This document shows, piece after piece, positions 44,718 through 46,398 of a stretch of 64,000 bases of DNA (within the stretch, counting starts at the first letter, position 1; each line of letters begins with the position of its first letter). The stretch is from Thermoflexus hugenholtzii (GTDB lineage Bacteria; Chloroflexota; Anaerolineae; Thermoflexales; Thermoflexaceae). The position numbers and the translations under genes were made by a program. The stretch is taken from NCBI RefSeq assembly GCF_018771565.1, contig NZ_CP076326.1, forward strand, positions 310,001-374,000. Reading direction: 5' to 3'. Under the pieces are notes generated by a model. It did no database searches. It was not told the DNA's origin and worked only from the letters and a program-made list of their open reading frames with translations.

Positions 44718-46109
44718 TTACGTATAGAACGCGGCATGGATGCGGCGGACGGCCTCCTCCGCGTCGCTCTCCGCGACCACCAGGGAGAGATTGTATTCCG
44801 AAGAACCCTGGGCGATGGAGAGGACGTTGATGCGGCCGTTCCCCAGGGCGTTGAAGACCCGCGCGGCGATCCCCGGCGTCGCCCGCAGGCCGGCGCCCAC
44901 CACAGCGATGATGGCCACCCGATCCATCGCCCAAATGTCCTCGATGTCCCGCCGGGCCATCTCCCGCTCGAAGGCTGCCCGCAGCGCCCTCACCACCCGG
45001 GCGGCGGCCGGGGAGGGGATCACGAAGCAGATGTTCTGCTCCGAGGAAGATTGAGAGATCATCAGGATGCTGACCCCCAGCTCGGCCACGGCCGCGAAGG
45101 CCCGGGCGGCCACCCCCGGCACGCCCAGCATCCCTCGCCCTTCCACCGTGATCAGGCTCATGTTCTTGATCAAAGTGACCGCCTTCACCTGGCCGTTGCC
45201 CCGGGGCTCCGGGACGATCCAGGTGCCGGGGTGTTGGGGATGGAAGGTGTTCAGGATCCGCACCGGGATGCGACGGTCGATGCAGGGGAGAAGGGTGCGC
45301 GGGTGGAGGACCTTTGCGCCGAAATAGGCCATCTCGGCCGCTTCGATGTAGGAAAGCTCCGGGATGGTGCGGGCCTCAGGGACGATCTTGGGGTCCGCGC
45401 TCATCACCCCATTCACATCCGTCCAGATCCACACGGATTCCGCATCCAGGGCATAGCCCAGGATGGTGGCGGAGAAGTCGGAGCCGCCGCGGCCCAGGGT
45501 GGTGGGGCGGCCCTCCCGGGTGGCGCCGATGAAGCCGGTCACCACCGGGACGACCCCGGCCTCCACCAGGGGGAGGAGAGCCGCCCGCGCACGGGTTCGC
45601 GTCTCTTCCAGGTCGGGGGAGGCTTCCCCGAAATGATCGTCGGTGATCAGGAAGGCATCCGCGTCCACCGCGCGGGCGGGGATGCCCTGGGCCCGCAGGA
45701 CCGCCGCCAGCATGCGGGCGCTCCAGCGCTCCCCCATCCCCGCCAGCAAATCGGCGATAGAGGGGGAAAGCTCCCGGAGGGCCGCCACCGCCTGCGCCAG
45801 CTGCTCCGCCCGGGCGAACCCCTGTTCCAGCTCCTCGCGGAGGGCCCGGGCTTCCTCCTCCGGCAACCCCAGCTCATCCACAGCCTCCCGATGGCGCTCC
45901 CGGAGGTCCGCCAGGGTCTGCCTCCACTCCGGGTTCCCTTCCCGAGCCTGCTGGCTCATCCGGATGAGGGCGTCGGTCACCCCGGCCATGGCGGAGACCA
46001 CCACGACCAGCTGGGGGTGAGCGGCCCGCTGGTGCGCGATCAGGTCGGCCACGTGGCGCAGGCGCGCCGCATCGCCCACCGAAGTCCCGCCGAACTTCAT
46101 CACCCGCAT
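44718..46109 (-). CDS. lysC: Aspartate kinase with two ACT domains
   Basis: 463 residues. Kinase N-terminus MRVMKFGGTSVGDAARLRHV (KFGGTSV), then FIGATREGRPTTLGRGGSDF (GRGGSD motif) and WTDVNGVMSADPKIV. Residues about 315-463 are two ACT domains (LITVEGRGMLGVPGVAARAF, IIAVVGAGLRATPGIAARVF) that bind the end-product amino acids. It makes aspartyl phosphate for Lys, Met, Thr and Ile. The ATG at 46109 follows GAGGAGGCGACC. Upstream is a full transcription-attenuation leader (46166-46398), so expression is likely lowered by Thr/Met charging as well as by ACT-domain feedback. Confidence 0.95.
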   Translation of the reverse strand: MRVMKFGGTSVGDAARLRHVADLIAHQRAAHPQLVVVVSAMAGVTDALIRMSQQAREGNPEWRQTLADLRERHREAVDELGLPEEEARALREELEQGFARAEQLAQAVAALRELSPSIADLLAGMGERWSARMLAAVLRAQGIPARAVDADAFLITDDHFGEASPDLEETRTRARAALLPLVEAGVVPVVTGFIGATREGRPTTLGRGGSDFSATILGYALDAESVWIWTDVNGVMSADPKIVPEARTIPELSYIEAAEMAYFGAKVLHPRTLLPCIDRRIPVRILNTFHPQHPGTWIVPEPRGNGQVKAVTLIKNMSLITVEGRGMLGVPGVAARAFAAVAELGVSILMISQSSSEQNICFVIPSPAAARVVRALRAAFEREMARRDIEDIWAMDRVAIIAVVGAGLRATPGIAARVFNALGNGRINVLSIAQGSSEYNLSLVVAESDAEEAVRRIHAAFYT

Positions 46110-46165
46110 GGTCGCCTCCTCGGTGAAGGGTAGGGCGCCGCTTCCGTTGCGCCCCGGGAAAAAGC

Positions 46166-46197
46166 AACCCCCCGGCCTGCCTTCGGGCCGGGGGGTT
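46166..46197 (-). terminator. Attenuator terminator in the lysC leader
   Basis: On the minus strand AACCCCCCGGCC (46197-46186), loop of 8, GGCCGGGGGGTT (46177-46166), then GCTTTTTCCC. A 12-base GC-rich stem plus T5 run lies 56 bases before the lysC start and after the leader ORF. Its 5' arm can instead pair with GGCCGGGGG inside the leader ORF (46260-46252). Confidence 0.85.
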
Positions 46198-46227
46198 GGG
46201 ATGTGCGTCGGAGTTGAGGTCAGCCGT

Positions 46228-46332
46228 TCATCCTGCGAAAGCCCGGACATTCCCCCGGCCGCCCGGAAGACCGGTGGTCATCATCCCGGTCACGGTCATC
46301 GCCATCGAGGGGATGCCCGTCCGCTTCGACAT
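46228..46332 (-). CDS. Leader peptide rich in Thr and Met codons (lysC attenuator)
   Basis: A 34-residue ORF with a GGAGGAGCG ribosome site (46340-46346). It reads MSKRTGIPSMAMTVTGMMTT then GLPGGRGNVRAFAG. Five Thr (5, 13, 15, 19, 20), five Met (1, 10, 12, 17, 18) and one Ile (7) are packed into residues 1-20, the pattern of thrL-type leaders for the aspartate family. Codons for Gly24-Arg26-Gly27 contain GGCCGGGGG, which can base-pair with the 5' arm of the terminator; a ribosome stalled on Thr/Met codons would leave it free. Function inferred from structure. Confidence 0.82.
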   Translation of the reverse strand: MSKRTGIPSMAMTVTGMMTTGLPGGRGNVRAFAG

Positions 46333-46370
46333 CGCGTCGCTCCTCCCGCGATCCTGCGGGGTTGTCTTTT

Positions 46371-46398
46371 ATTGTATGCGCCTCGCTCGATCTGTCAA
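46371..46398 (-). promoter_or_regulatory. Promoter of the leader-lysC transcript
   Basis: TTGACA (minus strand, 46398-46393) is a perfect -35 box. TACAAT (46376-46371) is the -10 box, 16 bases away. Transcription would start near 46364, about 30 bases before the leader ATG. Confidence 0.8.

Follow-up and report, generated by a model that had tools for sequence, protein, structure and literature searches.

The thrL attenuator of thrABC in Gammaproteobacteria (RF00506) is multivalent, its leader peptide carrying both Thr and Ile codons. Leader-peptide attenuation of amino acid genes is known mainly from Proteobacteria, some examples also having been described in Actinobacteria and Firmicutes (PMC1262725; PMC2965389), and one survey suggested that the amino acid attenuators held in Rfam originated in the Gammaproteobacteria (PMC3766115). 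The trp, leu and ilv leader-peptide attenuators of Actinobacteria (PMC1262725) and the his leader attenuator of bacilli (PMC2965389) extend the same principle beyond the Proteobacteria, but concern other amino acids, genes and phyla than the leader described here, which lies upstream of the aspartate kinase gene lysC in Thermoflexus hugenholtzii, a member of the Chloroflexota. Among open-licence papers, nothing relevant was found on Thr or Met leader attenuators in Chloroflexota or Acidobacteria. The Thermoflexus leader resembles thrL in its clustered Thr codons, its intrinsic terminator and the ThrA-type aspartokinase that follows, as well as in the TTG located directly after the regulatory codons. 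The peptides differ, however, the second residue being Ile in thrL and Met in Thermoflexus; the Thermoflexus gene is a monofunctional lysC in a chloroflexotal host, and its antiterminator uses a stretch within codons 25–27 of the leader that copies the terminator 3′ arm almost exactly. In our view the Thermoflexus leader follows a common principle in a setting not described so far; its second input would be unusual, and its signature is clear throughout the genus.

The lysC leader region of T. hugenholtzii

The leader was located in the window, that is, the whole stretch of 64,000 nucleotides analysed, which belongs to a 3.3 Mb genome assembled as a single contig (Table 1). A promoter, a 34-codon leader with five Thr, five Met and one Ile, and a GC-rich terminator with a T5 tract had been proposed to precede lysC. 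The TTGACA-16-TACAAT promoter was found as claimed; the 2.4 kb scan, in which 0.2 such sites would be expected, turned up no other promoter-like site, making it the sole one found before lysC. The composition of the leader peptide, MSKRTGIPSMAMTVTGMMTTGLPGGRGNVRAFAG, was borne out codon by codon, with Thr at codons 5, 13, 15, 19 and 20, Met at codons 1 (the start), 10, 12, 17 and 18, and Ile at codon 7. The terminator stem (46198–46165) measures 13 bp, 11 of them GC, and is followed by T5. The leader codons were also said to be complementary to the terminator 5′ arm: the complementarity is exact, GGCCGGGGG matching CCCCCGGCC at 46194–46186, but it occupies codons 25–27 rather than 24–27. Taken alone in the window, this 9-nt complementarity is only moderately unlikely in GC-rich DNA, being matched in 28 of 1000 dinucleotide shuffles. 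The protector strand, segment 1, was absent from the original prediction. The small hairpin within the regulatory codons is a possible pause hairpin. For the lysC product, the second-best model match is PRK09436, a ThrA-type bifunctional kinase.

Table 1. Predicted elements of the lysC leader region and their positions in the window.
Feature	Position	Strand	Basis
Sigma-70-type promoter TTGACA-16-TACAAT	46371–46398	(−)	TTGACA 46398–46393, 16-nt spacer, TACAAT 46376–46371
Shine–Dalgarno GGGAGGA of the leader ORF	46341–46347	(−)	sequence
Leader ORF, 34 codons	46228–46332	(−)	ATG 46332, TGA 46228; orthologous ORF in eight species
Segment 1 GGGCATCCCC, 5′ strand of the protector (1:2) stem; contains the single Ile codon	46309–46318	(−)	pairing with segment 2 in six of eight species; compensatory changes
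Regulatory codons 13–20 (T V T G M M T T)	46273–46296	(−)	pS above pN in core columns (values in text); Thr/Met interchange
Small hairpin ACCGG-loop-CCGGU within the regulatory codons	46270–46290	(−)	conserved, weakened in G007
Segment 2 GGCCGGGGGAATGTCC, partner of segment 1 (protector) or segment 3 (antiterminator)	46245–46260	(−)	GCCGGGGG invariant in eight species, third codon positions included
Segment 3, terminator 5′ arm CAACCCCCCGGCCC	46185–46198	(−)	pairing to segment 2
Intrinsic terminator (3:4 stem and T5 tract)	46159–46198	(−)	in all eight species each of the 12 counted pairs is standard
lysC, aspartate kinase, 463 aa, controlled gene	44718–46109	(−)	ATG 46109; NF004938 above cut-off

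Conservation and alternative pairings within Thermoflexus

Nine Thermoflexus genomes were examined, of which G002 was left out as its lysC is cut by a contig end; the analysis thus covers eight species of a single genus, a shallow sample. Conservation in related genomes had been put forward as a check on the attenuator, and the layout, including the Thr/Met stretch, is kept in all eight species whose lysC upstream region can be read, each having the promoter (aligned as TTGACA-16-TANAAT), the leader ORF, segment 2 and the terminator. The seven other leader peptides are MPKQMGIPSMAMTMTGMMTTGLPGGRGDVRAFAG, MSKRTGIPSMTTTMTGMMTTGLPSSRGDVRSFVG, MVSKRMSQNISLVMMTTTGMMTTGWRNGRGDVRRMV, MACERMSQNISLVTMMTTGMMTTGWRGGRGDVRVMVQSR, MPPKQSFRSVSPATKTTTEPMTTGWKSSRGDAWLAT, MVRMRRDICEMAATTTGMMTTGWANGRGEARVVV and MRWGILEMAMTTTGMMTTGWTNGRGNARVVV, for the last five of which the start codon is putative, being chosen among several in-frame candidates. 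Every leader contains at least seven Thr, Met or Ile residues in a stretch of 12, compared with 0.3% of shuffles, and in each species segment 2 is a perfect complement of the terminator 5′ arm over 9–11 nt (2–28 per 1000 shuffles each). In Candidatus Thermoflexus japonica (L007), about 90 extra bases separate the terminator from the lysC start relative to most other species.

A whole-leader dN/dS near 1 could be taken as a sign that coding constraint is absent, but this proved misleading, the informative measure being a region-wise split. Pooled over species pairs, which are non-independent so that the figures are descriptive, pS was 0.35 and pN 0.10 in the Thr/Met core (alignment columns 16–24), where the Thr codons of the T-G-M-M-T-T-G motif change synonymously between species. 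In the segment 2 region pS (0.13) lay below pN (0.20), and the values were 0.38 and 0.46 for the segment 1 region and 0.40 and 0.52 for the leader tail. The core is thus conserved as codons and segment 2 as RNA, while the remaining peptide is free to vary. Such mosaic selection is the prediction of an attenuator and would not be expected of a peptide with a function of its own or of a switch made of RNA only.

These data bear on two other explanations for the locus. It is very improbable that a metabolite-binding RNA acts on the terminator and that the ORF is accidental, since the Thr/Met stretch is selected at the codon level, a 6-nt, in-frame indel occurs inside the ORF, and no Rfam match came near any gathering score; RNA segments and terminator are indeed conserved, as a riboswitch would demand, and sister lineages do use riboswitches at lysC, but beyond the pairing segments and a single small hairpin the RNA structure is not conserved. 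RF00506 was not among the covariance-model matches of the leader up to E = 5, and neither RF00230 (T-box) nor RF00162 (SAM) matched in the Thermoflexus leader, the same library finding both upstream of lysC in sister lineages. Even less credible is a terminator that simply ends a short leader transcript encoding a functional peptide. The small ORF does come with a promoter, a ribosome site and a terminator of its own, yet that promoter is the only one found before lysC, the tail and N-terminal part of the peptide are unconstrained (pN ≥ pS), and the complementarity between segment 2 and the terminator is maintained in all eight species.

Segment 2 has competing pairings with segments 1 and 3. 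In the 1:2 stem, GGGCAUCCCC pairs with GGGGGAAUGUCC in the window sequence, GAACAUCUCCC with GGGGGGAUGUUC in G003 and G005, and GAGUGUCUCCCC with GGGGGGAUGCUU in G007. This protector stem pairs in six of the eight species, more weakly in the window sequence, and is poor in G008 and G001, for which folding suggests that a local stem formed from the codons just before segment 2 may be used instead. Standard pairs make up 91% of the protector-stem cells and 100% of the terminator-stem cells in the alignment, and sliding the partner by one column as a control lowered the paired cells from 96% to at most 68%. One pair in each of the two stems changes on both sides in three species (G-C to A-U in the protector stem), the count of compensatory pairs not exceeding that in column shuffles; covariation support for the predicted stems is modest.

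A comparison of folds with and without a ribosome had been suggested alongside the original prediction. At equilibrium, the full leader favours the terminator at every ribosome position, so this form of the test was uninformative and was replaced by folds of the transcript as it stands before synthesis of segment 4, in which the expected response was seen. RNA extending to the end of segment 3 was folded at 75°C, a temperature chosen because T. hugenholtzii was isolated from sediment at about 80°C (PMC8129789), and the ribosome was represented by a mask from −17 to +13 nt around the A-site codon. For the window sequence, the predicted 2:3 pairing was at least 0.97 with the ribosome at codons 3–21 and at most 0.02 at codons 23–32, returning at the stop codon. 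Masking of segment 2 starts at codon 22–23, directly past the last Thr codons (19 and 20). In free RNA under the same conditions, 1:2 was favoured in six of the eight species and 2:3 prevailed in the window sequence (0.95) and in G003 (0.81); the fold of G007 responded weakly to stalling, reaching at most 0.51. Since full-length equilibrium folds always give the terminator, the choice between terminator and antiterminator must be kinetic, as in classical attenuators, and the attenuation model depends on when each event occurs in the course of transcription.

Proposed mechanism and candidate signals

As in known amino acid attenuators, the Thermoflexus locus combines a predicted short ORF with clustered codons for pathway end products (Thr and Met for the aspartate pathway), an intrinsic terminator between this ORF and lysC in all eight species, a mutually exclusive antiterminator, located immediately after the regulatory codons and predicted to use the 5′ arm of the terminator, and, in six species, a protector stem. 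Conservation, mosaic selection, the conserved alternative pairing and footprint folding all back the leader-peptide attenuation of lysC originally predicted, and on the basis of sequence comparison and modelling we place the probability of this ribosome-mediated mechanism in Thermoflexus at roughly 0.88. The attenuator would match the level of aspartokinase to how much charged tRNA-Thr and, probably, tRNA-Met is available. RNA polymerase would transcribe the leader with a ribosome following behind. When Thr (or Met) is short, the ribosome would stall at codons 12–20, disrupting segment 1 and leaving segment 2 free to pair with segment 3 once this is made, so that no terminator forms and lysC is transcribed. 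When Thr and Met are plentiful, the ribosome would either cover segment 2 up to the stop codon or leave and allow 1:2 to re-form; with segment 2 occupied or held in 1:2, segment 3 would pair with segment 4 and transcription would stop.

Starvation for Thr and Met, and perhaps Ile, had been expected to relieve termination. The composition of the leaders agrees well with this for Thr, more weakly for Met and not for Ile. In the Thr-densest 12 residues of the Thermoflexus leaders, picked by Thr alone, Thr accounts for 43% of residues (background 6%) and Met for 29% (background 3%), an enrichment of Met of about tenfold. Ile is outside the ten commonest residues of these stretches. As a third signal Ile was rejected, since its single codon lies in segment 1 and it lacks enrichment in the regulatory stretch; the CAUC of segment 1 is needed for 1:2 pairing. 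We consider it very probable that Thr is sensed, and somewhat more probable than otherwise that Met is sensed too. A Met response is not assured because a shortage of Met would also impair initiation of the leader, which favours termination.

This effect on initiation is one of several points that suit an attenuator responding to charged tRNA-Thr only, in which the Met codons would be by-products of nucleotide constraints or of ACG-to-ATG drift. Thr codons (four to seven) occur in every Thermoflexus leader, G007 keeps one internal Met, and the ACCGG..CCGGU hairpin overlaps the Met codons, placing ATGATG in its loop. However, nucleotide constraint or drift sits uneasily with the tenfold enrichment of Met noted above and with its presence at alignment columns 14–17, upstream of the hairpin, where, as at column 8, Thr and Met replace one another (ACG/ATG, a single transition). 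Met is also enriched in unrelated acidobacterial thrA leaders (10% compared with 2% background), and lysC in sister lineages is served by SAM riboswitches. We therefore judge a response to Thr only to be the less likely arrangement, and incline, with some reserve, to a single leader peptide that integrates Met and Thr, doing the work that sister lineages divide between SAM riboswitches and Thr T-boxes, similar Thr/Met/Ile leaders having arisen separately in Acidobacteriota.

Regulation of lysC in sister lineages and Thr-rich leaders in other phyla

None of 44 lysC upstream regions from other Chloroflexota (the class and neighbouring groups) had seven Thr, Met or Ile residues in 12, the leader being absent from them, and a search for the leader core across 298 genomes of the class found one copy only outside the genus, in G055 with one mismatch, and no further Thermoflexus copies. 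The element is therefore conserved in the genus and not in the phylum. Other Anaerolineae carry SAM-I riboswitches (RF00162) just upstream of lysC (L011, L108 and L098) or 1.4 kb upstream (L097), or T-boxes (RF00230) before lysC (L014, L106 and L019), two of which score slightly and one clearly below the Rfam gathering score. According to the model alignment, the specifier position of these three T-boxes would be occupied by ACC (Thr). These devices share with the Thermoflexus leader the gene, the class, the presumed signals (Thr, and Met via SAM) and, mostly, a terminator before lysC. They differ in that the RNA binds tRNA or SAM directly and each senses one signal, whereas in Thermoflexus codons would be read by the ribosome and both signals could be combined. 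Exchange of the sensing device at one gene is a known theme (PMC2965389), and three different RNA devices on one gene in one bacterial class provide a good system for studying the exchange of regulation.

The genome carrying the window (G000) also encodes asd (TIGR00978; L131), hom (L123), thrB (L135) and thrC (L127), all above cut-off, together with two strong Cys/Met PLP enzymes and a short MetH-like protein; Thr leaders were not seen before hom or the best thrC match. With lysC, asd, hom, thrB and thrC complete the aspartate-to-threonine set. As judged from gene content, this set is at odds with the published prediction that T. hugenholtzii is unable to make homoserine or threonine de novo (PMC8129789), and together with the putative attenuator it argues that Thermoflexus produces threonine itself and regulates that production.

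Thr-rich leaders also occur before ThrA-type genes in other phyla. In 27 of 30 acidobacterial genomes (G060 and relatives), a leader with at least seven Thr, Met or Ile residues in 12, a density reached by 0.2% of shuffles, precedes thrA and is followed by a GC-rich terminator-like hairpin. These ORFs (L136, L139–L167; for example IMTTTTTGTHPGAGTA, MTGMTGMTNTPTGVRGT and MMTTNGTITHPVSRGA) lie at most 290 bases before the bifunctional thrA. In myxobacteria, the aspartokinase gene is preceded by leaders in which Thr codons stand in runs, together with the same GC terminator (L070, L074, L076 and L082). Both groups resemble Thermoflexus in having a Thr-rich leader and GC terminator directly before a ThrA-type gene, but no sequence similarity to the Thermoflexus leaders was seen, and comparison of the sequences suggests that the three are likely to be of separate origin. 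We found no published description of the acidobacterial or myxobacterial Thr leaders among open-licence papers. A test for perfect matches between leader and terminator arm gave p < 0.05 for nine of 33 acidobacterial and myxobacterial leaders; the thrL control from Aeromonas failed as well, indicating that this test is insensitive. A conserved attenuator in Chloroflexota alongside unrelated ones in Acidobacteriota and myxobacteria would demonstrate that this design has emerged more than once. One of the records with a Thr-codon-run leader, L082, is labelled Comamonas but is Myxococcus-like at the aspartokinase leader and is perhaps mislabelled.
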